Shown here one piece after another: positions 42,791 to 61,873 of a stretch of 64,000 nucleotides of DNA. The DNA is taken from contig NZ_LN884297.1 of NCBI RefSeq assembly GCF_001403875.1, forward strand, positions 186,001 to 250,000, given 5' to 3'. The stretch is from Paenibacillus ihumii (lineage in GTDB: Bacteria; Bacillota; Bacilli; Paenibacillales; Paenibacillaceae). Under the pieces are notes generated by a model, which was not told where the DNA came from, did not search any database, and worked only from the letters and a program-made list of their open reading frames with translations. Both the position numbers and the translations under genes were made by a program. Every line of letters begins with the position of its first letter. Position 1 is the first letter of the stretch.

Positions 42791-42791
42791 T

Positions 42792-42975
42792 TAAATGGAT
42801 TTATAGTAGTTAGTTTCTGCGTCAAAGCAAGGAAAGCAGATTTAAATGGATTTCATGTCGTTAGTAAGGAGGAACTGTCCATCATGGGCGGGATTCTTGA
42901 TTTTAGGTGCATCAAATCCATCTAATCTGTTGAACCACTCATTTAGAACATAATTAGATACATGAAATCCATTTA
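42792..42975 (+). repeat. MITE-like dispersed element, copy A
   Basis: About 184 bp starting TAAATGGATT and ending AATCCATTTA, a perfect 10-bp terminal inverted repeat. Two further copies of the same motif lie inside it in opposite orientation. It is the inverse-oriented homologue of 60173-60360, with matching blocks such as GAAAGCAGATTTAAATGGAT and ATTTTAGGTGCAT. It has no coding capacity. Bases 42976 to about 43070 after it have no gene. Confidence 0.85.
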
Positions 42976-43069
42976 GTTTTTGAGTTCGATAGGCAAACCT
43001 AAGTGGATAATAGTCGGTGTCGGTGAAGATTACATGAATTCCATTCAGTATTCGAGTTCGATAGCTTAG

Positions 43070-43400
43070 TTCGTGCTTTAGTTCATGCTTGTGTTTGTGC
43101 TTGTGCTCGTGCTCGTGCTTGTATTCGTGCTTGTATTCGTGCTTGTATTCGTGCTTGTGTTCATGCTTGTGCTCGTGCTTGTGTTCGTGCTTTAGTTCGT
43201 GCTTGTGCTTGTGCTCGTACTTGTGTTCGTGCTTATGTTCATGCTTGTATTCGTGCTTGAGTTCATGCTTGTGTTCGTGCTTGTGTTCGTGCTTGTGTTC
43301 ATGCTTGTGTTCGTGCTTGTGTTCGTGCTTGTGTTCGTGCTTGTGTTCATGCTTGTGTTCATGCTTGTGTTCATGCTTGTGTTCGTGCTTGAGTTCGACA
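43070..43400. repeat. 12-bp tandem array (TTCGTGCTTGTG unit, about 26 copies)
   Basis: TTCGTGCTTGTG with variants (TTCATGCTTGTG, TTCGTGCTTGAG) repeats about 26 times. Because 12 is a multiple of three, every frame on both strands stays open, giving spurious Cys-Leu, Val-Leu or Asn-Thr-Ser peptides. No ribosome binding site or domain supports a gene. Confidence 0.9.
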
Positions 43401-43515
43401 GCATATGTTCGAGTTTAGAGTGCCACAGCTTATATAAGATGAGCCAAAGAATGGGGTTCAGGCAAGGGAGAAATGGATTCCGGCAAACATTGATTCGCAG
43501 AAGCGGATTTCCAGA

Positions 43516-43655
43516 GACGAATCCCGCAGAAACGAATCCCATAGAGACGAATTCCGCAGAGACGAATCCCACAGAGACGAGTTCCGCAGAGACGAATTCC
43601 GCAGAGACGAATCCCACAGAGACGAATTCCGCAGAGACGAATACGCAGAAACAAA
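43516..43655. repeat. 15-bp tandem array (GACGAATTCCGCAGA unit, about 9 copies)
   Basis: Units start every 15 bases from 43516; the two main variants alternate (GAATTCCGCAGA and GAATCCCACAGA). It is unrelated to the 12-bp array 100 bases to its left. Reading frames through it on both strands are artefacts of the period. Confidence 0.9.
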
Positions 43656-43687
43656 TTTCGTAGAAACGGATAGCTTTCTAAAAGAAA

Positions 43688-43729
43688 GGGGGCGCCCCCG
43701 TCATCTATGATGACTTCTGGGACGGCCCC
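43688..43729 (-). terminator. Terminator of the KGG stress protein gene
   Basis: On the minus strand GGGGC pairs with GCCCC at the base, and an inner perfect stem GTCATC/GATGAC closes on three bases; the stem is followed by TTTCTTTT. It lies 63 bases after the KGG gene stop. Confidence 0.75.
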
Positions 43730-43792
43730 TTGCTTGGCCTAAAGGCCAGTCACGTATATTGTATAATCATCGTACCATGCATGAACACGCTG

Positions 43793-44134
43793 TTATTTAT
43801 CCCTGCGCTGGCGAGCCCGCGCTTCGCCGCCTTTGCGGCCCGCTTCCTCGCGGCTCATCTTCCCGTCATCGTTATCGGAATTGCTGCGGGCTTCGCCGCC
43901 TTTGTGCCCGATTTCCTGATAGAACTCTTTGTCATGATTTTTAGCGGTAGCCTCGCCGCCTTTGCGGCCAATTTCCTGATAGAATTCCTTATCATGGTTC
44001 TTAGCGGTAGCTTCGCCACCCTTCTTGCCAATCTCCTGATAGAATTCCTTGTCATGATTTCTGGCAGTAGCCTCGCCGCCCTTACGGCCTGCTTCCTCCA
44101 AGCTCATCTTACCGTCACGATTGTTGTTAGCCAT
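43793..44134 (-). CDS. KGG-repeat stress-induced protein (GsiB-like)
   Basis: A 113-aa hydrophilic, glycine-rich protein made of five tandem repeats of about 20-22 residues with the core (A/H)(R/K)KGGEA and HDKEFYQEIG. This matches the GsiB/KGG general stress and desiccation-protection family. The DNA repeats (about 60 bp) are nearly identical, which marks recent expansion. The start is ATG 44134 with AAGGAG upstream; the frame extends to 44173 without support. A sigma-B-like promoter lies about 55 bases upstream. A role in protecting proteins under dehydration or starvation is known for relatives only. Confidence 0.88.
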   Translation of the reverse strand: MANNNRDGKMSLEEAGRKGGEATARNHDKEFYQEIGKKGGEATAKNHDKEFYQEIGRKGGEATAKNHDKEFYQEIGHKGGEARSNSDNDDGKMSREEAGRKGGEARARQRRDK

Positions 44135-44189
44135 GGTTGGTTCACTCCTTATCGTATTTGTAAGGTACCGCATCGGGTACGGTATTGTA

Positions 44190-44214
44190 TTACCCGCTCC
44201 ACAGAAATCAAAAC
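44190..44214 (-). promoter_or_regulatory. Sigma-B-like promoter of the KGG gene
   Basis: On the minus strand GTTTTG (44214-44209) and GGGTAA (44195-44190) are separated by 13 bases, close to the Bacillus sigma-B consensus GTTTAA-N12-14-GGGTAT. It lies 56 bases upstream of the KGG start codon. GsiB in B. subtilis is sigma-B-dependent, so the match is meaningful, but whether this organism has sigma-B is unknown. Confidence 0.5.
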
Positions 44215-44215
44215 A

Positions 44216-44362
44216 TCAGCGCCGTATAATATGCGTCTTGGCAACTGGTACATAGGTGACGTTGTCAAGCAAGAGATCGTAGCCAATCGGTTCTCCATTT
44301 ACGGTTATCGTAATTTTCTTCAATTTATGATCCAGCTCGTTCGTTTGCAATTTCTGTTTCAT
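44216..44362 (-). CDS. Small 48-aa protein resembling a copper amine oxidase N-terminal (stalk) domain fragment
   Basis: ATG 44362, preceded by AAGGAG at 11 bases, opens a 48-codon frame ending TGA at 44216. The peptide has the strand pattern ITITVNGEPIGYDLLLDNVTYVPV, which resembles the VNG...N...YVPL signature of the amine-oxidase N-terminal / stalk domain found on many Bacillus wall proteins. There is no signal peptide. It may be a real micro-protein, or a decayed remnant of a longer stalk protein. Its stop lies two bases from the -35 hexamer of the KGG promoter. Confidence 0.45.
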   Translation of the reverse strand: MKQKLQTNELDHKLKKITITVNGEPIGYDLLLDNVTYVPVAKTHIIRR

Positions 44363-44449
44363 AATCGATTTCTCTCCTTATACTTCTGTGCAGATTTGCA
44401 TGGACGCTTAAAATTAACCTGCCTGGAGATCATCGAAACAGTAAGCACG

Positions 44450-45175
44450 CTAGAGCACAATAACAGCGAGGAGCAAATATTGAACAGAGCCGATAATTTC
44501 TATAATCCCTACTTTCATAGGCCGCAGTGTTCTCCCGGCAAAAACGAAGGTACGAATAAGCGGGAACAAATAGGCTGTCATCATCAGCGGCAAGCCTAGC
44601 AGCCAGGGAATCACCAGCAGGACGACATGGTATCCTTTTGCACAGGCGATCCACCGCCTATTGGTCCGCTCGCGGAATACAGACTTCACGAAGAACACGC
44701 TGCCCATGAAAAAAAGCACGTTAAACCAAACGACCAGCAGCATGGTGCGATCCCATCCGCCTCCGCCAAGCCAATAAGCGGCAGCCCCGCCGATCGAGAA
44801 GATCAGAACAGCACACAGATCATTCAATACGGCCCGTTCTGATTTTTGCTTCACATGCCATAAATTGACCGATAGCAGGACAAGCAAAATCGGCCCAAAA
44901 TAAAATAGCTTCGGAAAGCTGATCAGAACCGGAACCAAGCATAATAGGGCAATAGCGCCATAAATCACGCCCCAAGCGACCAGGCGTCTGCGCTCTTTTT
45001 TGCGCTTGACCGATTGTAGAAACGGATACGACGACAAGTATAGAAACAGCCATGCCAGAATTAAAGGCAGATGCATCCACTGCGGCCGCCCCGTCACCAT
45101 TCCGATCACAAACGGAACACTGACCATGGCCCATCCCCCATGCTCATGGGGAATGACGATCCCCTGCTTCTTCAC
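44450..45175 (-). CDS. ywiC: YwiC-like membrane protein
   Basis: A 241-aa integral membrane protein with about seven or eight hydrophobic helices. The N-terminus has the family mark IPHEHGGWAM. In B. subtilis, ywiC sits beside narGHJI and narK, and here too it is next to the molybdenum cofactor and nitrate genes, supporting the call. Its function is unknown; a role linked to anaerobic nitrate respiration is inference. The start is GTG 45175 with a weak GAGG site, so the true start is uncertain. It lies 34 bases after moaA. Confidence 0.85.
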   Translation of the reverse strand: MKKQGIVIPHEHGGWAMVSVPFVIGMVTGRPQWMHLPLILAWLFLYLSSYPFLQSVKRKKERRRLVAWGVIYGAIALLCLVPVLISFPKLFYFGPILLVLLSVNLWHVKQKSERAVLNDLCAVLIFSIGGAAAYWLGGGGWDRTMLLVVWFNVLFFMGSVFFVKSVFRERTNRRWIACAKGYHVVLLVIPWLLGLPLMMTAYLFPLIRTFVFAGRTLRPMKVGIIEIIGSVQYLLLAVIVL

Positions 45176-45209
45176 ATTCCTCTAACCTCTTCCCCTTATG
45201 CCATTTCTT

Positions 45210-46229
45210 TTAACCGCCAATATAGGACATATTGATTTTCTTCCGCAGCAGAGCCCTCTGCTCCGTTCGTTCATCGGAGTACCGATCCCCCCGCTGCTCC
45301 CAGACGCTTCGAATGGCGGCAAGGATTTCCTCCCTGGACGCCCCTCCCCGCAAGAGGCTGCGCAAATCAAAGCCCTGCGAGGCAAACAGGCAGGTATAGA
45401 ATTTCCCTTCAGACGAGAGCCTAGCACGCGTACAGGTCGAACAGAATGATTCCGATACCGAGGTAATAAAGCCGACCTCGGCTTCAGCGTCCTTATAGCG
45501 GTATCTCTGCGCTACTTCACCATAATAATGCGGCTCCAAGGCCTCCAGCTCGTACACCCTGGACAATTGATCATAAATATCCCTTTTGGTAACCACGCGG
45601 TCCAGACTCCAATCGTTATCGTTGCCCACATCCATGAATTCGATGAAGCACAGCGTGATGCCCTTCTCTTTGAAGTAGGCAGCCATCGGAAGAATTTCCT
45701 GATTATTTACGCCTTTTTGCACCACCATATTTACCTTGATCTGAAAGCCGATTTCCCTGGCATGCTCAATATTGTCAAGTATGGTGACCGGTCTGATGCC
45801 GCGTCCATTCATATATGCAAATAAATCCGGATCCAGGGCATCCAGGCTAATGTTCAACCTGCGGAGGCCTTGATCATACAACGCTTGAGCATATTGCTTC
45901 AGGAGCAGGCCATTCGTAGTCAGGCCTATGTCCTCGATCCCTTCAATGTTCACCAGCCTGCCCACGAGTTCCGGCAAATTTCTGCGCAGCAGGGGCTCCC
46001 CGCCTGTTAAACGAATCTTCTTTACACCCAGAGAAGCAAACAATTGTGCTGTGTAACAGATTTCTTCCAGTGTCAGCAGCTCGCTTTTAGGCAAAAATTC
46101 ATAATCATCGCCGAAAATCTCCTTAGGCATGCAGTAGGTACAGCGAAAATTGCAGCGATCCGTTACTGAAATGCGCAGATCGCGGATGGGCCGATTCAGC
46201 TGGTCGCGTATAGGTTCATTTCTCAACAT
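45210..46229 (-). CDS. moaA: GTP 3',8-cyclase
   Basis: MoaA is the radical SAM enzyme that begins molybdenum cofactor synthesis from GTP. Both Fe-S sites are visible: the radical-SAM CNFRCTYC (Cys26, Cys30, Cys33) and the C-terminal CSTC plus the distant Cys in FYTCLF. It ends MSYIGG with the terminal Gly-Gly needed for activity. The 339-aa length fits. The frame extends to 46259; ATG 46229 is the start that gives the usual distance to the first conserved strand (DLRIS), with AGAGGGG upstream. It is downstream of moaD and serves NarG. Confidence 0.92.
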   Translation of the reverse strand: MLRNEPIRDQLNRPIRDLRISVTDRCNFRCTYCMPKEIFGDDYEFLPKSELLTLEEICYTAQLFASLGVKKIRLTGGEPLLRRNLPELVGRLVNIEGIEDIGLTTNGLLLKQYAQALYDQGLRRLNISLDALDPDLFAYMNGRGIRPVTILDNIEHAREIGFQIKVNMVVQKGVNNQEILPMAAYFKEKGITLCFIEFMDVGNDNDWSLDRVVTKRDIYDQLSRVYELEALEPHYYGEVAQRYRYKDAEAEVGFITSVSESFCSTCTRARLSSEGKFYTCLFASQGFDLRSLLRGGASREEILAAIRSVWEQRGDRYSDERTEQRALLRKKINMSYIGG

Positions 46230-46285
46230 CCCCTTTGCCCCTCTCATGTCCTCCCGCAATTACTTATCATATGGCCCTTTAGCAT

Positions 46286-46519
46286 TTAACCGCCGCTCAC
46301 GGGAGGTATTACAGCCACCGTGTCCCCTGTCCGGATAACATCATCTTGGCGAGCATACTCCTCATTCACAGCAACAAATACAGTTTTAGCCTTAAAATCC
46401 GGGTAGGCTGCTTGTACCCAGTCCATAAATTCCTGAACCGTCCATTCCTGACGATCAATGAGCTCCTCCGGCTTCCCTGTCACATCGCGCAGACCTGCAA
46501 AATAGAGCACTCGTATCAT
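46286..46519 (-). CDS. moaD: Molybdopterin synthase small subunit (sulfur carrier)
   Basis: MoaD is a 77-aa ubiquitin-fold sulfur carrier. The C-terminal PVSGG ends in the Gly-Gly that forms the thiocarboxylate. Its ATG overlaps the moaE stop (ATGA), so the two subunits are made together. With MoaE it converts precursor Z to molybdopterin. Confidence 0.9.
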   Translation of the reverse strand: MIRVLYFAGLRDVTGKPEELIDRQEWTVQEFMDWVQAAYPDFKAKTVFVAVNEEYARQDDVIRTGDTVAVIPPVSGG

Positions 46520-46962
46520 TCCGCTCTCCCTCCAAGCTCAGGCTTCTTCCCCTGCTCTCCAATCCATTCCTCGCCGTCTTCCCATATTTCCTTCTTCCAG
46601 ATCGGCACCATTTCTTTGATGCGTTCAATTGCGTATTCATTGGCCCCGTAAGCCGCCTTCCGATGCGGTGACGATACGGCAATGACGACGGCAATGTCGG
46701 AAATGTGCAATTCACCGATGCGATGGGTTATCGCCACACGCGTGCCCGGCCATTTCTCTTCAACTTCGGCGCCGATTTGCGCCAGCTTCCTTTCCGCCAT
46801 CGGAATATAAGCCTCATAAGCCAAATATAGCGTTCTGACGCCGTGTGTCCACTCCCGCACATGCCCCGTAAACGTAGTTACGGCACCTGCCCCCGGATGC
46901 AGCACCTTATCTATAGCATCCTGAATATTTATAGGCCCGTCGACTATTTCGTACTGCTTCAT
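46516..46962 (-). CDS. moaE: Molybdopterin synthase catalytic subunit
   Basis: MoaE, 148 aa, is the large subunit of molybdopterin synthase. Motifs include GAVTTFTGHVRE, the YEAYIPMAERKL segment and VAVSSPHRKAAY, plus the conserved Lys region (VPIWKKEIWEDGEEW). The frame extends to 47031, but ATG 46962 is six bases after AAGGTGG. It lies 65 bases after the narK stop and is coupled to moaD. Confidence 0.92.
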   Translation of the reverse strand: MKQYEIVDGPINIQDAIDKVLHPGAGAVTTFTGHVREWTHGVRTLYLAYEAYIPMAERKLAQIGAEVEEKWPGTRVAITHRIGELHISDIAVVIAVSSPHRKAAYGANEYAIERIKEMVPIWKKEIWEDGEEWIGEQGKKPELGGRAE

Positions 46963-47027
46963 TTCCATCCACCTTACATCTAAAAATAGCTCAGGGCTAC
47001 CAGCCGAATGACCGGTCGCCCTGATTT

Positions 47028-48518
47028 TCACGATACACTAATATCGCTGAACAATCCAACATAGTGGACGACTTCACCTGAATCATCTTTTACCGCATTG
47101 ATCGTCAGAAACTCCAAATATTCCTCCCCATTCTTCCGCCGGTTCCAAATTTCCCCTTGCCACTGGCCCGTTTCTCGGATCGTATGCCACATTTCCTCGT
47201 AGAATGGTTTAGACTGCCTGCCTGATTTTAATATACTGGGCTTATGGCCGATGACCTCATCCTCATTATAACCTGTTAGCTTGGTGAAGGCAGGATTAAC
47301 GCTTCGAATCCTTCCCTTGGCGTCGGTAACTAGAATTCCCTGCCCTGTATAGCGAAACACCTTACTGGACATGACCAGCCGGTCCTGATAATACATCCAT
47401 ATGACAAGGATTAGGCTTGCTAGAGCTACTTGAGACAAAGCCATGAACCCAATGGAATACTGCCCGGTCATGGAATAAATCATGGAGAGCATAAGCGGCG
47501 GAAAGAAGCCCCCCAGCCCCCCCATCATCGATACGATCCCATTCACGGTTCCGGCCTGCTTGCCGAAGTATTGCGGAACCAGCTTGAATATAACGCCATT
47601 TCCCAGCCCCGCACAAATCGCTATAGTTAAACTGCCTATTGTATACAACCCGATCGATGGAGAGAAGGCAAGCAAAATGCCGGAAAGCGTCAGCCCTAGA
47701 AATATACCCATCAGCAAAATTAACGGCTTAAACTTGTCGCCAAGCCATCCGCCCACTGGACGCATGAATGTAGCCAGTGCGATAAATCCCGCTGTACGCA
47801 TCCCGGCATCCACTTTATCAAGCTCAAAATGCGAGACCAGAAAGTTAGGCAAGTACACGGTGAAGGCCACAAACGAACCAAACGTGAGGAAATAGAAAAG
47901 CGAGAAAAACCACAGCTTATCGCTCTTATAGACCGCCTTGATTTCCTCCTTAATAGGCGTCTTCCCTTTGACTTCTTTCCGGTCGCCAAACAGAAGATTT
48001 AAGCCGATAAAAATCAATAGCAAAATCAGATATAGCTTGACCGTTAATGACCAGCCTACCTGGGTCGCAATCACCGGTGCTGCAAACGTAGTAATCGCTG
48101 TGCCCAGATTGCCAATCCCGTACACGCCATTGACCAGCCCATGCCGTTCCTTCGGGTAGTACTTCGGCAAAGACGTTACGCCCACAGAGAATACGGCGCC
48201 GCCAACCCCCAGAAACAATCCGCCGATGACTAAATCGGTATACGAAGAAGCCTCGCTGATATAGAATACCGGGAACAGCAGCAGCACGAAGCTAACCGAG
48301 AATACGATACGCGCTCCGAACACATTGGCATAGTACCCGAAAGGGATTCTTAGAACTGACCCGAGCACGACGGGGATCGCCGTGAGCATCGCCAGCTTCT
48401 CCGCTGGAATTTGAATATCTTCTTTCATAAATGGAATGAGCGCCGAAATAATCACCCACACCATAAAGCCAAGTACTAAATTCATCGTTTGCAAAGGCAG
48501 CTGCATTTTTCTAATCAT
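47028..48518 (-). CDS. narK: Nitrate/nitrite transporter NarK fused to a C-terminal PAS domain
   Basis: The first 385 or so residues are a 12-helix MFS nitrate/nitrite antiporter (NarK): the two nitrate-binding Arg segments are present (RIPFGYY near Arg57 and MRPVGGWLGD near Arg253), with the Gly-rich nitrate signatures GGLFLGVGGAVFSVG and CAGLGNG. Residues about 393-496 form a PAS/PAC domain (GILVTDAKGRIRSVNPAFTKL ... YVGLFSDIS), joined by a short linker after helix 12. Length is 496 aa against about 400 for plain NarK. The start ATG 48518 follows TAGGTGAT. Two NreC-like boxes lie upstream. The PAS could make transport responsive to redox or another signal, which is inference. Confidence 0.9.
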   Translation of the reverse strand: MIRKMQLPLQTMNLVLGFMVWVIISALIPFMKEDIQIPAEKLAMLTAIPVVLGSVLRIPFGYYANVFGARIVFSVSFVLLLFPVFYISEASSYTDLVIGGLFLGVGGAVFSVGVTSLPKYYPKERHGLVNGVYGIGNLGTAITTFAAPVIATQVGWSLTVKLYLILLLIFIGLNLLFGDRKEVKGKTPIKEEIKAVYKSDKLWFFSLFYFLTFGSFVAFTVYLPNFLVSHFELDKVDAGMRTAGFIALATFMRPVGGWLGDKFKPLILLMGIFLGLTLSGILLAFSPSIGLYTIGSLTIAICAGLGNGVIFKLVPQYFGKQAGTVNGIVSMMGGLGGFFPPLMLSMIYSMTGQYSIGFMALSQVALASLILVIWMYYQDRLVMSSKVFRYTGQGILVTDAKGRIRSVNPAFTKLTGYNEDEVIGHKPSILKSGRQSKPFYEEMWHTIRETGQWQGEIWNRRKNGEEYLEFLTINAVKDDSGEVVHYVGLFSDISVS

Positions 48519-48594
48519 CAGATCACCTAATTCCTGCATACTGAATTATTGGTTCCCACGTCTAATTGTAAATGCAGTACGAGAAGAAAAATAA

Positions 48595-48630
48595 TAGGGA
48601 AATCCCCTGATCGTGCCGAGGAATTCCCTA
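48595..48630. promoter_or_regulatory. Paired NreC-like boxes upstream of narK
   Basis: TAGGGAAATCCCCT (48595-48608) and AGGAATTCCCTA (48619-48630) are GGG-N4-CCC-type palindromes (the second with one mismatch), 77-112 bases upstream of the narK start. The first shares the exact 10-mer GGGAAATCCC with a box upstream of narG. NreC sites in Staphylococcus have a GGG-N4-CCC core, and nreC is in this locus. Confidence 0.6.
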
Positions 48631-48674
48631 AATATTGTGCGTTTTAGATTTGGCTATGTTAACCTTTATTATAA

Positions 48675-48845
48675 TATTCAGCGGGTGTGTTACTTGTAGA
48701 ACCAGTGACAGCTCCTATTATCGGTGCTACGAAAACGTCTCATCTCGAAGATGCCATAGGTGCCCTTTCTATTACATTAACACCAGAGGAAATCGTATCA
48801 TTAGAAGAAACGTATATACCTCACAGGATAATTGAACACGAGTAA
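48675..48845 (+). pseudogene. Decayed C-terminal fragment of an aldo/keto reductase
   Basis: The plus-strand frame through 48687-48845 translates to GVLLVEPVTAPIIGATKTSH followed by LEDAIGALSITLTPEEIVSL and a short tail before TAA, the conserved C-terminus of YhdN-type aldo/keto reductases (the PIIGATK NADP-binding segment and the SLEE... end). The frame is closed upstream by a stop at 48672-48674, there is no ribosome binding site, and the catalytic barrel is missing. It lies in the 379-base gap upstream of narK and is the relic of a gene lost from this spot. Confidence 0.85.
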
Positions 48846-48872
48846 TATTGACTTTTAGTCAGCTAGCTTATT

Positions 48873-48892
48873 AAACCCCTTACGGGGCGGTT
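48873..48892 (-). terminator. Short terminator-like hairpin after nreC
   Basis: On the minus strand CCCC-GTAA-GGGG, extended by AACC/GGTT-like pairing with a mismatch, is followed by TTTAATAAG. It lies six bases after the nreC stop. Confidence 0.6.
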
Positions 48893-48897
48893 ATTGG

Positions 48898-49545
48898 CTA
48901 AAAATCAAGCAGCTTCTTCTTGAGGGCGTACTCCACTAATTCCGGGCGGCTCTTTAAGCCCAGCTTCTCCATGATTTTCGCCTTATGCACCTCGACCGTC
49001 TTGACGGAAATGAACAATTTCTCGGCAATTTCTTTGTTCCCATAACCCTTAGCAATCAGTGGCAGCACTTCTATCTCCCGCTTGGTTAACAGATTGAAAG
49101 GGTCGGAATCACTGGATTCCTGATCCTTCTTGATGAACTCCCTGACAAGGGATGTCGCCATCTTGGAGTGAATGTACGTTTCCCCCTGATGAACGGTGCG
49201 AATCGCCGTCAGCAATTCCTCGTCCGGTGCGTTTTTCAGCACATAGCCTGCAGCCCCGTTCTTTAGAACATGGAATAAATATTCCTCATCGTCGTACATG
49301 GTGAGAATCAATATTTTGGTATCGGGATAATCACTGCTGATCTTGCCTGTCGCGATCAGACCGCTTTCTCCCGGCGGCATGCTTAAATCCATCAATAAGA
49401 CGTCAGGGCTATGCTTGGCAACCATTTGATACGCCTCGATTCCATCTGCGGCCGTGGCCACGACCTCCATGTCGGGCTGATAATTCAGGATCATGGAGAA
49501 GCCGCTGCGAACGACGGCGTGATCGTCAGCGATAACAATTTTCAC
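48898..49545 (-). CDS. nreC: NarL/NreC family response regulator
   Basis: A 215-aa regulator: receiver domain with Asp7/Asp8 and phospho-acceptor Asp53 (LMDLSMP), and a C-terminal LuxR helix-turn-helix (about residues 148-205, [20 protein letters not shown]). It is the output partner of the oxygen-sensing kinase next to it and should activate narG and narK when oxygen is low. The ATG overlaps the kinase stop by four bases. Its likely target is the GGG-N4-CCC palindrome found upstream of both nar promoters. Confidence 0.9.
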
Positions 49546-50606
49546 TGCTTACCCCCTCCTTGATTTGACGATAACGGAATGCGAAGATGGATCGTCGTTC
49601 CCACGCCCACCTCCGACAATATCGTTAATTGGCCCTGCACAAGCTCGGCACGCTCCCGCATCCCGAACAAACCCAGCCCTGTCCCTCGCGGATCCTTGGC
49701 GTTCAATTGAAATCCGGAGCCCTCATCCTGCACGATGAGCTGCAGTTCCCCCTCCTCCTCAAACAGCCTGACCAGCATTTCATCTGTATTCGCATATTTC
49801 AGTGCATTCAATACCGCTTCCTGGCAGATCCGGTAGACGACCGTCTCTATTTCGCTGCTGTATCTCGCAGCGGATAACTCTGCCTTGAAGTCGATCAGCA
49901 GGCCATAGTTCTTCTCCAGCCATTTGAAATGGGAGCGGAATGCCGCCTCCAGTCCGAAATCATCCAATGACGCCGGGCGCAATTCCACAGCCAGCCGCCG
50001 GATATCATCGAGCAGCCGGGTTAACGAGGCTTCCGTCTGCTGCAGCTTGTTCAGGACGACTTCGTCGGCATTCATATATTTCAGAACGCGCAGATCGACG
50101 AGGGAGCTTAACAGCTCTTGAGCAACGCTGTCATGCAGCTCGCGTGAAATTCGCTTCCGCTCGTCCTCTTGCGCCTTGATCACATATTTGGTCATATTGG
50201 TCTGATACAGCATTTCCTGAGTTCGGTATTGCTTCGTTAAATTAAGCAGCATGAAGACACGGATGCCCCTCGCCTCATCGATCACATGGAAGCTTGCTGC
50301 ATAAGGAACAAGCCCTCTGCCCCGCGTATTCAAATACACTTGAAAGGAGGAGAAGTCCTCCTTCGTATTCTTCAAGAAGCAATTCACACAGGAGATCATC
50401 GCTTCTTCACTCGTATAGCCGGCACAGGAGCTGCAAATCGAGATCGTTTCTCCTTTATGCAGCTGTTCGATCACATCGTAATCCAGAATATTCTCCGCGG
50501 CCGGGTTCATATGCAGAATTTCCCCCTCGGAATTGACGAAGAAAATAGCCTCCATGCTGTTCTCGTACATATTCCTTAACAGATCTGACATCGGGATATC
50601 GATCAA
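49542..50606 (-). CDS. nreB: Oxygen-sensing histidine kinase with Fe-S PAS domain
   Basis: A cytoplasmic kinase (354 aa) of the NreB type. An N-terminal PAS domain carries Cys58-x2-Cys61-x11-Cys73-x2-Cys76, the same spacing and nearly the same positions as the four ligands of the oxygen-labile [4Fe-4S] cluster in staphylococcal NreB. The kinase core has the HisKA_3 motif [14 protein letters not shown] (His158) and an ATPase domain ending DEGSGF...[12 protein letters not shown]. The start is taken at TTG 50606, eight bases after AGGAG; a GTG at 50615 that overlaps the nreA stop is the alternative. Loss of the cluster in air would switch it off. Confidence 0.92.
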
Positions 50607-50611
50607 GGGGC

Positions 50612-51079: not shown

Positions 51080-51128
51080 TTAAACACCCCTGCTTAGTGA
51101 AAAGAAAGAAGGCATAACGCCTTCTCTC

Positions 51129-53912: not shown

Positions 53913-56900
53913 GCCAGTCAACCTCCTTCATCTTACGGACCGCAACATAGACATCCCGCTGGTTCCCGATCGGTCCGTAATAGTTGAAGCCATAGCTGAG
54001 TTGGGCGTAGCCGCCTACCATTTGCGTTGGCTTAACGTGAATTCGCGTCGGCGCATTGTGGCTTCCGCCGCGTTCCTTCGTAATCTCGGAGCCTGGAACG
54101 TTAATATGCTTATCCTGCGCGTGATACATGAACATCGTGCCTCTCGGCATGCGATGGCTAACCACCGCTCGCGCTGTAACAACGCCGTTCCGGTTGTACA
54201 CCTCAAGCCAATCATTATCCTGAATCTGGTGGGCAGCGGCATCCTCGTCGTTGATCCAGACCGTCGGGCCGCCGCGGAACAAGGTCAGCATATGAAGATT
54301 ATCCTGATACATGCTGTGAATATTCCATTTGCCATGCGGCGTTAAATAGCGCAGCACAAGCGCATCCGTGCCGCCGGCAATTTGCTTGTCCCGAGGGCCG
54401 AACACCATGGGCGGCAAGGTCGGCTTATAGACCGGCAATGCCTCGCCAAATTGCAGGAACAGCTCATGATCGATGTAGAAATGCTGTCTGCCTGTAAGCG
54501 TACGGAATGGCACAAGGCGCTCAATATTCGTGGTGAATGGGGAATAACGCCGCCCCATTTTATTGGATCCGCTGAACACCGGGGTAGGAATGACTTCGCG
54601 CGGCTGTACCGTAATGCTCTGGAACGTAATGCGCTCGGCTGCTCTGTCGGCGGAAATATCTTTAAGCGAAACGCCCGTATCCTGCTCCGCCGACTCCCAT
54701 GCCCGCTGGGACACTTTGCCATTCGTGGCGGATGACAGATTCAGGATGGCGTCAGCGGCATGGCGGGCGGTCTGGAGCTTCGGAAGCCCATTTTTGATCG
54801 AATCATCATGATAAGTGCCGTTGATGCGCTTCAGTTCCTCATATTCCTCGGCGACCGAGAAGCTGACACCGTGCGCCCCCACTTTGCCTGTGCTCAAATT
54901 CGGTCCAAGAGTAATGTATTTGTCATAGATCTTCGTATAGTCGCGTTCGACAATGCTCAGATTCGGCATGGTCTTGCCAGGAATCGGCTCAGCTTCACCC
55001 TTATGCCAATCCTTGATGACGCCGTACGGCTGGGCAATTTCATTCACAGAATCATGGGCAAGCGGTGTAGTTACAACATCTTTATATACGCCGGGAAGAT
55101 GCTCCTTCGCCATGTCCGAGAAAACGCCGGCAATCGTCCGGTAAATATCCCAGTCTGAACGGGATTCCCACAAGGGATCGACCGCCGGATTGAACGGGTG
55201 CACGAACGGATGCATATCCGTAGAAGACAAATCTGTCTTCTCATACCAGGTTGCCGCAGGCAATACGATATCCGCATACATCGGCGTCGACGTCATCCGG
55301 AAATCCAGCGCCACGAGCAAATCCAGCTTTCCCTCGACATCCTCTCGCCAGGTGATTTCCTCGGGCTTCTCCTCCTCGTTAGGCGTTGACAACAGCCCAT
55401 CCGATGCGCCCAGCAGATGCTTCATAAAGTACTCTTGCCCCTTCGCCGAGCTGGATATCAGATTTGAGCGCCAAACAAATAGCGTACGCGGGAAATTCTC
55501 CGGCGCATCCGGATCTTCAACAGCAAAGCTGGCTTCTCCAGATACGATTTGCTCCAATGCCTGCTTCATAATGCCTTCGTTATCTGTTATGCCTTGCTGT
55601 TCAGCTTCTGCAGCAAAAGCGAGGCTGCTCTTGTTAAACTGCGGATAGGACGGCAGCCAGCCGAGCCGGGCAGCGAGCACATTGTAATCCGCGGGATGCT
55701 GATAGCGCAGCTCTCCCCCAGTAGGCGATTTCAGCGAATTCGTCCCCGTCTCCTCATACTTCCATTGATCTGTTGCAAAATAGAAGAACGACGTGGCATT
55801 CTGCTGGCGCGAAGCACCCTGCCAGTCCTTCGCAAAAGCAATCGCGGACCAGCCTTCGATCGGACGGCATTTCTCCTGGCCCACATAATGCGCCCAGCCG
55901 CCGCCGTTCACCCCCTGTGATGCTGTCAGTATGACCAGATTCAGAATGGAGCGGTAGATCGTGTCGCTGTTAAACCAGTGATTAATCCCGGCGCCCATAA
56001 TAATCATGGAGCGTCCCCCGGTATCCAGTGAATTCTGCGCAAATTCACGGGCAATTTGAATGACGATGGAGGACTTGACGCCTGTGATGGCTTCCTGCCA
56101 TGCGGGCGTATAGTGTGTTGATGCGTCATCATATCCAGCTGCCTCATGGTCACTGCCGCTGCAACGCACGCCATATTGGCTCAGCATTAAGTCATATACG
56201 GTAACGGCCAGGCGTTCTGTACCATCAGCCAACTGGATTTTTCGAGCCGGAATCGAACGCTTGAAGGTTCCGTTCCCGGTAGGATCAAAGAACGGGAATA
56301 CCATCTCTTCCCACTGGGCGCCATGGGCTTCCACAGATAACGCCGGGCTGATCTTCGTACCGTCCTCGCGTTCCAGAATCAGGTTCCACTTCTTGTCCTT
56401 CTCCCAGCGCTGACCCATCGTTCCATTCGGAACCAAAATCTCATCTGTGGCTTCGTCGAGAATGACCGGCTTCCACTCCGCATGCTGTGATGTGTCTCCC
56501 AGATCACTGGCTCGCAGGAAGCGCCCAGCTTTGTAGCTGCCTTCATGCGGATCCAGAAGAATAAGGAACGGCATATCTGTATATTGTTTGGCATAGTCAA
56601 GGAACATCGGCTCCTGACGCTCATGATAGAACTCACTCAAAATAACATGGGTCATCGCTTGGGCAAGCGCCGCATCCGTCCCGGGATTCGGGGCCAGCCA
56701 ATGATCAGCGAACTTGACGTTTTCGGCATAGTCCGGCGCTACTGATACTACTTTTGTGCCTTTATAGCGAACCTCGGTCATAAAATGAGCGTCTGGTGTA
56801 CGCGTTAACGGCACGTTAGAGCCCCACATGATCAGGTAGCCGGAGTTGTACCAGTCGCTAGACTCGGGCACATCCGTCTGCTCGCCCCAAATTTGCGGCG

Positions 56901-57576
56901 AGGCGGGAGGCAGGTCGGCATACCAGTCATAGAAGCTGAGCATTTCGCCGCCCAACAGCGAGATGAACCGGGCGCCGGAGGCATAGCTGATCATCGACAT
57001 CGCCGGAATCGGCGTGAAGCCGGCGATCCGGTCCGGACCGTACTTGCGGATCGTATAGATGAGCTGTGCTGCGATGATCTGCGTGGCATCCTCCCAGGAT
57101 ACGCGGACATGGCCCCCTTTTCCCCGGGCCTGCTTGTAGGATCTCGCCTTTTCCGGATTTTCCACGATACTTGCCCAGGCGGCTACCGGATTGGCAGCTT
57201 CCTTCAGGGCTTGCTTCCACATTCTCAAGAGCCGGCCCCGCATATAGGGATATTTCACCCGCAGCGGACTGTATTCATACCACGAAAATGAAGCGCCGCG
57301 CGGGCAGCCGCGCGGTTCAAATTCCGGCATATCCGGTCCGCATGACGGATAATCGATCTGTTGATTTTCCCAGGTAATAATTCCATTCTTCACGAATACC
57401 TTCCAGCTGCAGGAGCCGGTGCAATTAACCCCGTGCGTCGTACGGACGACCTTGTCATGCGCCCATCGTCCGCGGTACATATTCTCCCAAGTGCGATCCT
57501 TCTCTTCAAGAATCGACCAATGATCAGAGTAGCTCTCAATCGGTTTGAAAAATCTCAGTCCGAAATTCCGTTTCAC
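53902..57576 (-). CDS. narG: Respiratory nitrate reductase, alpha (molybdenum) subunit
   Basis: NarG, about 1224 aa, is the catalytic subunit that reduces nitrate to nitrite at a bis-MGD molybdenum centre on the cytoplasmic face. The N-terminal FS0 Fe-S motif (HGVNCTGSCSWKVFVKNG and RGCPRGASFSW) and the long molybdopterin domains are intact. The start is ambiguous: the frame opens at GTG 57588, directly against AAGGA, while GTG 57576 is 11 bases from the site, so 57576 is used; the first conserved residues follow soon after. It heads narGHJI and has an NreC-like box about 107 bases upstream. Confidence 0.95.
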   Translation of the reverse strand: MKRNFGLRFFKPIESYSDHWSILEEKDRTWENMYRGRWAHDKVVRTTHGVNCTGSCSWKVFVKNGIITWENQQIDYPSCGPDMPEFEPRGCPRGASFSWYEYSPLRVKYPYMRGRLLRMWKQALKEAANPVAAWASIVENPEKARSYKQARGKGGHVRVSWEDATQIIAAQLIYTIRKYGPDRIAGFTPIPAMSMISYASGARFISLLGGEMLSFYDWYADLPPASPQIWGEQTDVPESSDWYNSGYLIMWGSNVPLTRTPDAHFMTEVRYKGTKVVSVAPDYAENVKFADHWLAPNPGTDAALAQAMTHVILSEFYHERQEPMFLDYAKQYTDMPFLILLDPHEGSYKAGRFLRASDLGDTSQHAEWKPVILDEATDEILVPNGTMGQRWEKDKKWNLILEREDGTKISPALSVEAHGAQWEEMVFPFFDPTGNGTFKRSIPARKIQLADGTERLAVTVYDLMLSQYGVRCSGSDHEAAGYDDASTHYTPAWQEAITGVKSSIVIQIAREFAQNSLDTGGRSMIIMGAGINHWFNSDTIYRSILNLVILTASQGVNGGGWAHYVGQEKCRPIEGWSAIAFAKDWQGASRQQNATSFFYFATDQWKYEETGTNSLKSPTGGELRYQHPADYNVLAARLGWLPSYPQFNKSSLAFAAEAEQQGITDNEGIMKQALEQIVSGEASFAVEDPDAPENFPRTLFVWRSNLISSSAKGQEYFMKHLLGASDGLLSTPNEEEKPEEITWREDVEGKLDLLVALDFRMTSTPMYADIVLPAATWYEKTDLSSTDMHPFVHPFNPAVDPLWESRSDWDIYRTIAGVFSDMAKEHLPGVYKDVVTTPLAHDSVNEIAQPYGVIKDWHKGEAEPIPGKTMPNLSIVERDYTKIYDKYITLGPNLSTGKVGAHGVSFSVAEEYEELKRINGTYHDDSIKNGLPKLQTARHAADAILNLSSATNGKVSQRAWESAEQDTGVSLKDISADRAAERITFQSITVQPREVIPTPVFSGSNKMGRRYSPFTTNIERLVPFRTLTGRQHFYIDHELFLQFGEALPVYKPTLPPMVFGPRDKQIAGGTDALVLRYLTPHGKWNIHSMYQDNLHMLTLFRGGPTVWINDEDAAAHQIQDNDWLEVYNRNGVVTARAVVSHRMPRGTMFMYHAQDKHINVPGSEITKERGGSHNAPTRIHVKPTQMVGGYAQLSYGFNYYGPIGNQRDVYVAVRKMKEVDWLED

Positions 57577-57682
57577 TGGATGAATCACTCCTTCTGCAGA
57601 ATGACAAAGATATGGCGGGAACCAATAATTTGTCTATTCTTATACCTTCATTATGAAAGGGAGCCATTCTCATTCCTATAAG

Positions 57683-57714
57683 GGGAAGTCCTGATATCGT
57701 TTCGGGGAAATCCC
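57683..57714. promoter_or_regulatory. NreC-like boxes upstream of narG
   Basis: GGGAAATCCC at 57705-57714 (a GGG-N4-CCC palindrome identical to the 10-mer upstream of narK) and a degenerate GGGAAGTCCT at 57683-57692 lie about 107-138 bases upstream of the narG start. They are 22 bases apart centre to centre, about two helical turns, as are the pair upstream of narK. Confidence 0.6.
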
Positions 57715-57753
57715 TCTTTCTTTCAAGAATCGCTTCTTCGTCGGCCGGCAGGG

Positions 57754-57783
57754 TTTACTTCCTGCTTCACAACCACTTATAAT
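57754..57783 (+). promoter_or_regulatory. Candidate sigma-A promoter of modA
   Basis: TTTACT (57754-57759) and a perfect TATAAT (57778-57783) are 18 bases apart, with modA starting at 57840. The -10 is exact and the -35 matches four of six. It diverges from the narG promoter region. Confidence 0.6.
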
Positions 57784-57839
57784 GAAACGCGAATCGTCCA
57801 ACAAATACTGCATCATCACTGGAAAGGGAGTTTGTATGT

Positions 57840-58622
57840 ATGAGAAGCCTGCGGACCTTTCTTGCCTTGTTCCTGTTCATCCCCCTTATATCTGCCGGTT
57901 GCAGTGCAGCTCCCAAAGAGCAGGTGGAATTAACCATTTCAGCAGCGGCAAGCCTTACAGACGCTATGAAAGAAATACAAGCCCTCTATGAAGTGAAGCA
58001 GCCTGCTGTTAAGCTCACTTTTAATTTCGGGGGCTCCGGCGCTCTGCAGAAGCAGATCGAGCAAGGTGCGCCTGCCGATTTATTTCTCTCTGCAGCAGCT
58101 AACAATATGAACGCCCTGCTGGACCAAGGCATGATTGATGACGAACAGCATGTCAATCTGCTGACCAATAAGCTTGTCGTTATCATGCCTGTCGAGAACA
58201 CTGAAGAGGTACAAGAACTGAGCGGCTTAAAAGATAATCGCATCAAGATGATCGCCCTGGGAATTCCGGAGAGCGTCCCGGCGGGAAGCTATGCCAAGGA
58301 AGCTTTAATGTCTGCCGGGCTATGGGACAGCCTCCAGTCAAAAGTGGTACAAGCCAAGGATGTTCGGCAAGTTCTGCAATACATAGAGACCGGCAACGCC
58401 GATGCAGGCTTTGTCTACCAGTCCGATGCGCTGACCTCTTCCAAGGTGAAGGTCGTTTTTCCCGTTGATCCGGCCAGCTACACGCCTGTCGAGTATCCGA
58501 TCGGCGTTATCAAGTCCACCAAGCATAGCAAGGAGGCCGCGGAGCTCTATAACTATCTTCAGTCTAAAGAGGCGCTGGACATTTTTATCAAATATGGCTT
58601 CGCTCCGGCACAGAACTTATGA
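57840..58622 (+). CDS. modA: Molybdate ABC transporter substrate-binding lipoprotein
   Basis: ModA captures molybdate outside the membrane. The 260-aa protein has a signal sequence ending in lipobox ISAGC (lipid Cys21), then the family segments LTISAAASLTDAMKE, FNFGGSGALQKQIEQGAPADLF and GFVYQSDAL. AAAGGGAG is nine bases before the ATG. Its stop overlaps modB (ATGA). Molybdenum is needed for NarG, which explains its place in the nitrate island. Confidence 0.94.
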   Translation: MRSLRTFLALFLFIPLISAGCSAAPKEQVELTISAAASLTDAMKEIQALYEVKQPAVKLTFNFGGSGALQKQIEQGAPADLFLSAAANNMNALLDQGMIDDEQHVNLLTNKLVVIMPVENTEEVQELSGLKDNRIKMIALGIPESVPAGSYAKEALMSAGLWDSLQSKVVQAKDVRQVLQYIETGNADAGFVYQSDALTSSKVKVVFPVDPASYTPVEYPIGVIKSTKHSKEAAELYNYLQSKEALDIFIKYGFAPAQNL

Positions 58623-59305
58623 GCATTCAAATACTTCAAATACCTTGGCATGAATTTTGGCCGCCTATCCGCTTATCCCTGCAGGTCGCCCTGCTGTCCA
58701 GCGTGCTGGTCACGATTCTGGGGACGGCCATCGCCCGATGGACATCCAGCCGGCAATGGAAAGGCAAAATTGTACTAGAGACAGTGCTTATGCTGCCGCT
58801 CGTCCTGCCTCCTACAGTTGTCGGATTCTTGCTGCTTGTCCTCCTGGGAAGGAGGAGCGGGATAGGCCGTTTCGCCGAATGGCTATTCTCCTCCCCGCTC
58901 ATATTCTCCTGGTGGGCAGCAGTCATTGCCTCTATCGTCGTCTCATTTCCGCTCGTCTACCAGACGATGAAATCCGCGTTTGCCTCGGTAGATCGGGAGC
59001 TGGAGGATGCTGGACGATCCAGCGGAGCCAGCGAGTGGCAAGTATTTCGCCATATTACGCTGCCGCTCTGCAGTCCATCCCTGATGACGGCCTATATACT
59101 CGGGTTTGCCCGGGGGCTGGGGGAATTTGGAGCAACCATCATGTTCGCTGGAAATATTCCGGGCAAAACCCAGACGCTTCCCACCGCAATCTATGTAGCC
59201 GTCGATACCGGGAACACCGAATTGGCCTGGGCCTGGACCATTACCATCGTCTTCATTTCCTTCCTGATGCTGCTGTTGACCCGGCGAAAAAATAAAACAT
59301 GGTGA
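58619..59305 (+). CDS. modB: Molybdate ABC transporter permease
   Basis: ModB, 228 aa, is the membrane channel of the molybdate importer. About five transmembrane helices and the EAA loop (about residues 125-150, ELEDAGRSSGASEWQVFRHITLP) that contacts the ATPase are present, with the GFARGLGEFGATIMFAGN segment typical of ModB. The ATG overlaps modA by four bases. No ModC ATPase gene follows within the window, so the transporter probably borrows an ATPase encoded elsewhere. Confidence 0.93.
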   Translation: MSIQILQIPWHEFWPPIRLSLQVALLSSVLVTILGTAIARWTSSRQWKGKIVLETVLMLPLVLPPTVVGFLLLVLLGRRSGIGRFAEWLFSSPLIFSWWAAVIASIVVSFPLVYQTMKSAFASVDRELEDAGRSSGASEWQVFRHITLPLCSPSLMTAYILGFARGLGEFGATIMFAGNIPGKTQTLPTAIYVAVDTGNTELAWAWTITIVFISFLMLLLTRRKNKTW

Positions 59306-59338
59306 ACAAAGGAGCACTCCTCACTCCTTGTCCACCAT
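59299..59338 (+). terminator. Hairpin after modB
   Basis: ATGGTG-ACAA-GGAG-type arms (59299-59314) pair with CTCCTTGTCCACCAT (59324-59338) with two bulged bases around a nine-base loop. There is no U tract, so it is a possible weak terminator or 3'-end structure. The left arm begins in the last codons of modB. Confidence 0.45.
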
Positions 59339-59394
59339 CAGGCTGATCGGGAACCCCGTCTTTTACTTGAATGGGTTCTCCTATTTTTCGGAAC

Positions 59395-59512
59395 TCTCTA
59401 TCTTTTCCAGAACTATATCTATTTCCAGAACTATATCTATCCATATGGGAACCATCTTTATCTTTTCCGGAACTATCTTTATCCATATGGGAACCATCTT
59501 TACCATAGTAGA
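59395..59512. repeat. Short degenerate tandem repeat between modB and the cupin gene
   Basis: CCATATGGGAACCATCTTTA occurs at 59441 and 59483 (42-base period), and TTTCCAGAACTATATCTAT occurs twice just before. No gene is seen in 59306-59588. Confidence 0.7.
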
Positions 59513-59588
59513 AAGTTAAACAAGCTTAGCTTCGTAACCAAAAAGATGTTCAAAGGAAAAGATGGGCAAAGGGCAAATTGGGAACTCT

Positions 59589-59927
59589 CTAAACGTTCTT
59601 GGCGTAGTTTTCGCCGGGGATCTTCGTCAATACAACGTACAGGCTGGAGTTCGTCTCACCGCCGCGATACGAGAAATCCTCGTACCCGGTAATATGCAGG
59701 ATGTCTCCCTGGGTCACGGCCGAGGCCTGCCCGCTGCAGATCACTTGGCCAGCACCTTCCAGGACTAGTATATACACATTTGCACCAGGGTGTTTATGTG
59801 TCGGCAGCTCCGCACCCGGAGCAAAGTTCAATATGAAAATAACGTTGTCCTCTTCCTTGAACACAATGCGCTTGGTAAATTTGTTCTCCTGATATTCCTG
59901 ATACTGGCTAAGCTGACGCTTCTCCAT
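59589..59927 (-). CDS. Small cupin-domain protein
   Basis: A 112-aa single-domain cupin. The metal-binding pattern is visible: PGAELPTHKHPGANVYILVLEG (His-x-His and Glu) and the second motif GDILHITGYEDFSYRG. It could be a regulator-like sensor or a small dioxygenase-type protein; no substrate can be assigned. ATG 59927 is nine bases after AAGGAGG; an earlier ATG at 59936 abuts the site. It is flanked by repeats on both sides. Confidence 0.8.
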   Translation of the reverse strand: MEKRQLSQYQEYQENKFTKRIVFKEEDNVIFILNFAPGAELPTHKHPGANVYILVLEGAGQVICSGQASAVTQGDILHITGYEDFSYRGGETNSSLYVVLTKIPGENYAKNV

Positions 59928-60000
59928 CGCGATCATCCTCCTTATGATATTGAAGCTGTATTAAACGTTGCTTGACGCTGCCGTTGAGGCCGCATGTTGA

Positions 60001-60118
60001 GGCTGCCTGCTACGCTGCCTGCTATGCTGCCTGCTATGCTGCCTGCTATGCTGCCTGCTACGCTGCCTGCTACGCTGCCTGCTATACTGCCCGCTATGCT
60101 GCCTGCTATGCTGCCTGT
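60001..60118. repeat. 12-bp tandem array (CTGCCTGCTATG unit, about 10 copies)
   Basis: CTGCCTGCTATG and variants (CTACG, CTATACTG) repeat every 12 bases. It produces a spurious MLPAMLPA-type frame. It begins 65 bases upstream of the cupin start and is part of the 612-base gap 59928-60539. Confidence 0.9.
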
Positions 60119-60172
60119 TTACACTAAAATGTTGTACAGTAAAAAGGCATGCACTAAAGCTGTGTCGTACAC

Positions 60173-60360
60173 ATAAATGGAATTCATGTATTTAATTATC
60201 CTCTAAACGAATGTTACGAGGGATTAGATGGATTTCATGCACCTAAATTCAAGAATCCAGCCCATGATCGCCATCTCCCTTTTTCTAATAACATGAAATC
60301 CATTTAAATCTGCTTTCCCTTTCTTGCCGCCGAAACTAACTACCATGAATCCATTTATAT
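60173..60360 (-). repeat. MITE-like dispersed element, copy B (inverted relative to copy A)
   Basis: About 188 bp ending in TAAATGGATT-type terminal inverted repeats. Read on the minus strand it aligns end to end with 42792-42975: shared blocks include GTAGTTAGTTTC, GAAAGCAGATTTAAATGGAT, ATCATGGGC and TAGGTGCAT. By eye about three quarters of positions agree. It has no coding capacity. Confidence 0.88.
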
Positions 60361-60426
60361 AAAATGAACTATTAACATGAATGCAGGGCAAGTACGTAAA
60401 ATGTTCCTACTACACCATCTATTAAC

Positions 60427-60493
60427 GCCATCTGTTGACGCTACCTGTAACGCTACCTGTAGCGATTCCTGTAGCGATTCCTGCTACGCTCCC
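60427..60493. repeat. Short 12-bp tandem repeat (ACGCTACCTGTA unit)
   Basis: ACGCTACCTGTA, then GCGATTCCTGTA, repeat about five times with substitutions in the gap downstream of the V4R gene. The unit resembles that of the 60001-60118 array (CTGCCTGCTATG) and may share an origin. Confidence 0.65.
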
Positions 60494-60539
60494 ACACGAT
60501 TACCCGCATCACTACCCTTAACGCTGCCTGTATCAAACA

Positions 60540-61004
60540 CTAGAGCCGCACCTCATACTCGCAGCAGTCGTCCCCATTTACATTGCACTTGATTTCCCTG
60601 ACGAACACTCTTTTGTTCATTATTTTGCTAAGCGCTCCCTCCATAATGGCGCCTTCCAGGTCGCAAACCAGATTCCCTTCGCTCTCCGGCAATCCCACGC
60701 AAAAACAATCATGTACCGCAATATGAAGCTTATGGTCTTCATCAAGAACAATTTGTGGATCGCCTACCTTCAATTCGCGGAATAAATCAAGCAGCTCTTG
60801 CACGGATTGTACGGGCAGGCTTTCACCGATTTTACGGCCAACCGTCAATGTCGTTCCCTTCCCTTTCATCGGAAGACCTTGATACATGCCGATAAGACGA
60901 ATAGCTCTATAAAGTTCGATCGGCACCGTGTGTCCCAATTTTGTCCTTGAAATTTTCTGCATATCATCAAAAGAAAATTCCTGCAAAGTATTTGCTTCTC
61001 TCAT
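60540..61004 (-). CDS. V4R-domain protein
   Basis: A 154-aa protein of the 4-vinyl reductase (V4R) small-molecule-binding class. The N-terminal helices (FDDMQKISRTKLGHTVPIEL) lead to an alpha/beta domain with the Cys-rich C-terminal pair typical of V4R: HDCFCVGLP (about residues 97-105) and CNVNGDDCCEYEV at the end. These Cys could bind a metal or ligand. The start is ATG 61004, which follows GAGGTG; the frame extends to 61142. It stands alone, so its ligand and partner are unknown. Confidence 0.78.
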   Translation of the reverse strand: MREANTLQEFSFDDMQKISRTKLGHTVPIELYRAIRLIGMYQGLPMKGKGTTLTVGRKIGESLPVQSVQELLDLFRELKVGDPQIVLDEDHKLHIAVHDCFCVGLPESEGNLVCDLEGAIMEGALSKIMNKRVFVREIKCNVNGDDCCEYEVRL

Positions 61005-61189
61005 ACAAGCACCTCGTTTCTTCATTTGCACCGGCCCTACTCTTATTGTATGGGATTGTTTTATGAAGATTGTGATTTTCGTCACAAATAGATAAATAAA
61101 CAGACTACTGCTGTTTTCAAATACTAAAGAAGCTATGGACACCGGCTTCTCTTTCTATAGCCTATCTGGATTCCATAACCGATACTGTA

Positions 61190-61560
61190 GACTGTGACTA
61201 ATAACCGGAACTAATATCCGTAAACAGTAAATGATTAACACTGATTACTGCTAACTGATAACTATGACTGATGACTGCTGACTGCTAACCAATGACTGAA
61301 CAGGAAATGAATATCCAATACTAATATCCGGGGGAACAAGTAACTGATAGCTGCAACCAATTCTGGCAACTGATAAACCGATGACTAATAACCGGCAACT
61401 TCTATCTGGAAACCGTGGCTGATTAACTATCGCCTCTACCTGATAACTCTAACTGAAAACTCTACCTAATAACTCTAACTATAACTCTAACTGTAACGTA
61501 CGTAAGCCAATAGCTGATTAACTGATTACAAAGCCAATTCTGACCAATGACCATAACCGG
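61190..61560. repeat. Low-complexity degenerate repeat of CTGATAACT/ACTGATGACT units
   Basis: Part of the 1.06-kb gap between the V4R gene and the nitroreductase. Units of 9-12 bases (CTGATAACT, ACTGATGAC, CTGCTAACC, CTAATAACT) recur loosely for about 370 bases. No gene is seen in 61005-62065 apart from the repeat, MITE-like copy C and a terminator. Confidence 0.7.
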
Positions 61561-61738
61561 TAAAATATCGCTGTCTGATATTCGAATTGAACTTTGTACG
61601 CCGTGCTTCTTGTGCACCGGATGCGGATCGAGGCATGCTTGGATAACTGTCGACCAACTCTGTATCCTGCACCCGATTAAGTAAGGTTTAGTTGGGTTTC
61701 GTGTACTTATTTTTAGTGTAATGGAGCGGCATAGAGAG

Positions 61739-61873
61739 TTAGATGGATTTCATGTATTTAAAACATTCCAGCCCCATTTTCCGGTGTAAAACCCCTGAAT
61801 TAATAACACAAAATCCAGTTATATTGCAGGCTCTGCACCATATCCATATTTTAATTACCGAAAATCCATTTAT
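61739..61873 (-). repeat. MITE-like dispersed element, copy C (decayed and shortened)
   Basis: About 135 bp with the motif AGATGGATTTCATGTATTTAA near 61740 and AAAATCCATTTAT at the end; the central part (ATTCCAGCCCCA, TAATAACACAAAATCCA) matches copy B in the same orientation. It has lost one outer quarter of the element. Confidence 0.7.

Follow-up and report, generated by a model that had tools for sequence, protein, structure and literature searches.

IS1272 takes inverted repeats as its targets and replaces them on insertion without target duplications, a process named inverted-repeat-replacing transposition; the same source also describes a larger form whose left side is tandemly duplicated and cites others for the statement that some members of the IS1182 family target palindromes (PMC5678879). 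Here we describe an element with ends of the IS1182 insertion sequence (IS) family in a 64,000-nucleotide stretch of Paenibacillus ihumii (contig NZ_LN884297.1, positions 186,001 to 250,000), referred to below as the window; the assembled genome has 5.92 Mb in 9 contigs. A preliminary description of the window had reported a symmetric intergenic repeat of about 185 bp in three copies (A, B, and C) and had taken the ends of this repeat as the ends of a mobile unit. This is not so for copy A, in which the repeat, here called the core, lies inside a longer unit with IS1182-like ends of its own. Copy A and its kin, the A-type elements, are probably non-autonomous relatives of IS1182 whose interior is an older four-site core between variable tandem arrays.

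Ends and interior of the A-type element

Copies resemble one another beyond the borders of the core, and many have a common outer end, GGGGCTGTCCCAGAAGTCATC. The TAAATGG...CCATTTA inverted ends given in the preliminary description do bound the core, but the similarity between copies continues outside them. When the genome is scanned for the outer end GGGCTGTCCCARAAGTMATC with at most one mismatch, all 19 matches have a core within ~1 kb, and for 17 of these the core is on the expected side and in the expected orientation. A second end pattern has 18 matches in the genome, 17 of them ≤740 bp from a collected core.

Ends of this kind bound an uninterrupted IS1182-family element, L217, in another genome, G038. 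The L217 transposase matches the NCBIfam model NF033551 with 463.7 bits (cut-off, 270). The right end of the copy A element is the same as the right end of L217 in 25 of 27 aligned letters and scores 44, where the best of 1000 shuffles reaches 21; the left end of the copy A element scores 48 against a shuffle maximum of 23. Twelve end comparisons with L217 were chosen (six left ends out of the 19, and as many right ends), and every one of them exceeds all 1000 shuffles.

At three loci, a core and a decayed IS1182 transposase are found in the expected order. Locus L111, in the window's genome, contains a left end, the core, decayed transposase residues ~261 to 518, and a right end. The other two, L229 and L272, are both in G008 and contain the core and transposase residues 408 to 532; the left end of L272 was not recognised. 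Based on the IS1182-matching ends and the decayed transposase beside the core, we interpret the A-type elements as core-carrying relatives of IS1182 that are non-autonomous. Their ends would be IS ends, the transposase gene having been lost or having decayed, and their spread in the window's lineage would have relied on a transposase supplied in trans. Within the window itself, the preliminary description had noted no transposase, which holds for the 9 of 181 listed open reading frames (ORFs) that were scanned with Pfam.

Elements with IS1182-type ends also occur apart from the core. G015 has elements of ~390 to 405 bp with such ends and no core (L204, L206, and L220), and its genome contains 32 end matches, several of them at contig edges, and no core match. 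G009 is very rich in IS1182, with 17 transposase matches at 443 to 446 bits without stops and 15 weaker ones in 408-amino-acid (aa) frames.

Occupied and empty sites

Copies A and B are both absent from the matching sites in the relatives compared, as the proposal of a miniature inverted-repeat transposable element (MITE) would have it. The term MITE-like fits the copy number, the sites that are empty in relatives, and the IS-family ends, but a 184-bp palindrome that moves on its own is not supported. The blocks that flank the element in the window at site A are 63 bp apart in G004, and a hairpin of −26.0 to −37.8 kcal/mol occupies the place of the element in G004, G008, G009, and G035. At a second A-type site, L026, the same gene is followed by a hairpin (−18.2 to −33.8 kcal/mol) in all seven relatives and by the element in the window's genome; these energies, like those that follow, are given without a shuffle control. 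The left ends of the elements at site A (folded with a few more letters on each side, as 43670 to 43735) and at L026 also consist of a hairpin and then a run of T (−27.8 and −25.9 kcal/mol, respectively). Both of the A-type sites compared fit the loss of a hairpin, with the qualification that the relatives have diverged (identity at L026 is 82 to 84% for six of the seven and 72% for the seventh) and that one site lost more than its hairpin.

A position between convergent genes was found for 17 of 34 A-type copies, compared with 53 of 326 in the background (p = 2e-5), and for 26 of the 34 a gene ends towards the left end of the element. Gene context was taken from a simple longest-ORF script. 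In one count, 7 of 74 copies that overlap a called ORF were dropped; the second count ignored ORFs over the core and used a minimum of 100 aa, versus 90 aa for the background, which was taken from G036 alone. The A-type elements would land on inverted repeats, often the terminator hairpins at gene ends, and replace them, each element supplying its own terminator-like left end on landing.

Copy C is old and common to the relatives: it has counterparts at the matching place in G004, G008, and G035 (E values of 4e-6 to 3e-9) and, weakly, in G009 (E of ~0.01). A- and B-type copies have moved, or were lost, in evolutionary time. No recent movement was found in 400 kb of G036 compared with G037 (mean identity over aligned blocks, 96.3%), where all 4 cores in each genome have counterparts in the other and the tandem arrays beside corresponding cores vary in length. 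In the joined 400-kb stretch of G037, ~4 kb adjoining a core (L154, 68362 to 72765) is absent at the same place in G036; by eye, its reading frames resemble an ABC transporter and a two-component system.

The core and its B-type context

The core is a 184-bp non-coding repeat with four TAAATGGATTTCATG-like motifs, two per direction, at a fixed spacing; in copy A these start at 42792, 42843, 42912, and 42963, which gives intervals of 51, 69, and 51 bp. With up to two mismatches the motif pattern has 18 matches in the window, compared with 5.37 on average and at most 13 in 100 shuffles. The claim of a dispersed element in at least three copies is borne out, with end-to-end matches of copies A and B to a 184-position profile (itself derived from copies that include these two) and dozens of copies genome-wide. 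Copy C had been called shortened and decayed. It is decayed, with a profile match at 61691 to 61824 (32.8 bits) and a final motif at 61860 to 61872, but it is of full length once this last motif is counted.

A genome-wide search found many strong copies and not just the three in the window. In the core's own genome, all 40 scored matches, out of 86 first-look candidates, have E ≤ 5.0e-47 by BLAST, and the exact 15-mer TAAATGGAWTTCATG occurs 87 times, versus 0 for the reversed control. Cores were collected at 60 different places in this genome, and the true number is higher; five further TAAATGGAWTTCATG sites that were checked are away from any of these 60. Among 40 congeneric genomes searched, the core is present in 7 (the window's genome included), each with at least 20 matches listed, of which 20 candidates were scored, and the other 33 have no match at E ≤ 0.001. 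A stringent core pattern found five stretches in P. fonticola, P. bouchesdurhonensis, and P. woosongensis, and a distant blastn search of plasmid and phage records gave no match at E 1e-5. The analyses below use 86 cores, 60 from the window's genome and 26 from other genomes, which is an uneven sample. Two of the cores, in L112 (G000:C5:198000-203458), lie 437 bp apart on one strand and are mutual nearest relatives in the core tree.

Copy B represents a different setting, the B-type, which is an older context of the core. The blocks that flank copy B are ~540 to 570 bp apart in the window, compared with 16 bp in G004, 16 bp in G009, and 8 bp in G035. B-type cores directly precede a MITE of the TATAAG type, here called E-B, with the ends TATAAGTTGAACTA and TAGTTCATCTTATA, and several have a second E-B copy on the other side. 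At one common B-type site, G008 has E-B, core, and E-B; in the window's genome, G035, and G036 the left E-B is trimmed and is followed by the core and E-B; G037 has a 269-bp E-B without the core; and G004 and G009 have neither. The core was not found at this site in G003, G011, G015, and G016, where the surroundings differ. Given how close G037 is to G036, the core was likely lost in G037, perhaps by recombination between direct repeats. The E-B end pattern (at most two mismatches) is found in 16 of 39 genomes, several of them without core matches, whereas its reversed control has 1 match in total, in G028; a candidate right end of E-B is present at 11 of 17 loci examined. E-B is a second MITE family, the same inverted ends being found also in genomes that have no core.

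Many cores have tandem arrays on both sides. In addition to the arrays in the table, which collects the features of the window, there are 12-bp arrays at 60422 to 60483, so that related 12-bp units flank copy B on both sides. Strong arrays are not limited to core sites: arrays without a core lie at 63157 to 63485 (period 46), 18193 to 18490 (period 46), and 19591 to 20053 (period 128). A 60-bp tandem repeat (3.3 copies, 43893 to 44089) lies inside a listed ORF.

Table. Positions of the A- and B-type features, cores, and tandem arrays in the window
Feature	Position	Strand	Basis
Whole A-type composite element, ~1.3 kb	42415..43729	-	Located ends; IS1182 in G038; hairpin in four relatives
Right end (element orientation); + strand reads AGGGCTGTCCCAAAAATAAACTTTA	42415..42439	-	Match to G038 IS1182 right end
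Left end (element orientation); hairpin and T-run, terminator-like	43675..43729	-	Match to G038 IS1182 left end
Copy A, 184-bp core	42792..42975	-	Profile positions 1-184, 187.4 bits
Tandem arrays at lower coordinates than core A (periods 70 and 37)	42448..42747		TRF
Tandem arrays at higher coordinates than core A (periods 12, 27, and 15/45)	43069..43668		TRF
Stretch containing copy B	59975..60539	+	Synteny blocks versus G004, G009, and G035
Tandem array left of core B (12-bp unit, 9.7 copies)	60002..60117		TRF
Copy B, 184-bp core, B-type context	60174..60357	+	Profile positions 1-184, 186.7 bits
Start of E-B (TATAAG-type MITE), truncated, abutting core B	60358..60407	+	60358-60383 located; right boundary approximate, by eye
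Copy C, old decayed core	61691..61873 (approx.)	+	Profile and last motif; counterparts in relatives

Explanations weighed and comparison with known systems

Several observations weigh against reading copy A and its kin as IS1182 relatives that replace hairpins. One match of the second end pattern is 5.1 kb from any collected core, a candidate right end is present in just 10 of the 17 copies with a correctly placed core, and at least 2 of these 10 candidates (L083 and L084) look unlike the IS end. L217 was found by means of 20 bp of the A-type end, so the independent evidence that it provides is in the letters beyond these. In the window's genome we found no transposase that is uninterrupted and also has matching ends, and the A-type family may therefore be stranded. 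When the G038 transposase is compared with this genome, the sole match at E ≤ 1e-30 is the decayed one, and as for other IS1182 genes of the genome as the mobiliser, no GGGGCTGTCCCA (at most two mismatches) was found around the three examined of the five above the cut-off. The hairpin energies lack a shuffle control, and at L026 ~90 to 100 bp beyond the hairpin are also missing (by eye, compared with G009, G035, and G037), which makes a plain deletion possible. Finally, IS1182 ends alone leave the conservation of the core motifs unexplained.

The motif columns are the most conserved part of the core (~94% versus 85%; 2 of 20000 random placements are as high). Core length is 183 to 186 in all 85 cores above 100 bits, and the 86 cores have 42 indel events versus 1948 substitutions, figures that come from a search retaining strong matches only. 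These features, and the presence of the core in two unlike contexts, would suit a core that is itself mobile, a TA-flanked MITE with TAAATGG inverted ends whose insertions into IS1182 relatives and next to TATAAG MITEs were separate events. We consider such independent insertion unlikely. In the sequence collected, no flank is joined without the core (there is one weak match, with 4 mismatches in 23), and the empty sites lack more than the core alone. When 20 regions around lone motifs and other sites were examined, 18 had a strong full-length core, one had a weak match, and one had none. In a tree of 85 cores, moreover, the A-type label has 6 changes, compared with 28.8 when shuffled (0 of 500 shuffles as low), and orthologs of different species pair, although support is weak for 51 of 81 inner branches. 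The agreement of flank type with the core tree indicates that, in the spread of the A-type, the core travelled together with its flank. By flank, 41 of the 60 cores of the window's genome are A-type, compared with 2 of the 26 from other genomes (types were assigned by a fuzzy match that leaves 16 of the 86 cores unassigned), which suggests, under uneven sampling, an A-type burst in the window's lineage. A longer element bounded by the core ends was also considered; none was seen in the 20 regions examined.

Four sites with fixed spacing and few indels, in at least 60 copies in one genome, could also be a host site that serves chromosome organisation or regulation and that selection has maintained since insertion. 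We regard this as very improbable. In 8 orthologous pairs, with 85 changes available, no motif constraint after insertion was detected (23 changes in motif columns versus 27.7 expected; p = 0.16), whereas in the 18 closest disjoint paralog pairs the motif columns have 60 of 293 changes versus 95.5 expected (p = 3e-6). The contrast between orthologs and paralogs is itself weak (p = 0.23 with 15-bp motifs and 0.051 with 22-bp motifs). Core sites also differ between species, G037 lacking a core where G036 keeps it. With caution, the conservation of the motifs can be taken as a hint that they serve spreading and not the host. The core would be an older four-site DNA module, found also beside the second MITE family, whose motifs were retained while the carrier elements spread. 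It is conceivable, if doubtful, that this is a portable recruitment module which at least two dissimilar non-autonomous families have captured, and that putative protein binding to its four sites lets the carriers multiply. The least credible alternative is a structured RNA encoded by the core. Inverted motifs could pair, and the preliminary description had seen a four-armed palindrome, which finds no support as RNA structure: 36 copies folded together give a consensus at −3.7 kcal/mol (covariation term, −0.14), just 2 of the 16 pairs of this fold have any change on both sides, and an Rfam scan of the window gives no match at or above the gathering score of a family.

We found no description of the core repeat, or of any Paenibacillus MITE, in the literature searched, where coverage of subscription journals is limited; within that coverage, nothing contradicts the earlier suggestion that the element is undescribed. 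It seems to capture stages on the way from a transposon to a smaller non-autonomous element of high copy number. The two sites suggest that hairpin-replacing transposition, as in IS1272 of Staphylococcus, also acts in Paenibacillus, there removing gene terminators. The element also raises the question of why four internal motifs stay conserved among spreading copies.

Compared with the described systems, the element is closest to IS1182 and IS1272. The A-type ends match an IS1182-family element and two A-type sites fit an IS1272-like replacement, but the A-type elements have either no transposase or a decayed one, and inside them long variable arrays surround a four-site core of 184 bp. BrickBuilt, a MITE of Porphyromonas gingivalis with an internal minisatellite, is likewise intergenic and MITE-like with tandem repeats inside; however, it has a 23-nucleotide repeat with leader and tail units, and the part consulted mentions neither a four-site core nor an IS1182 link (PMC4596501). 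BOX, RUP, and SPRITE of Streptococcus pneumoniae are similar in their high copy number, slow turnover, and status there as presumed parasites, but they belong to another host and are likened here by description and not by sequence (PMC3049150). The REP and REPIN sequences are also palindromic repeats in many copies (PMC3116915), whereas the Paenibacillus core has 184 bp with four motifs. Set beside these systems, the element is probably a non-autonomous IS1182 relative with a four-site module.

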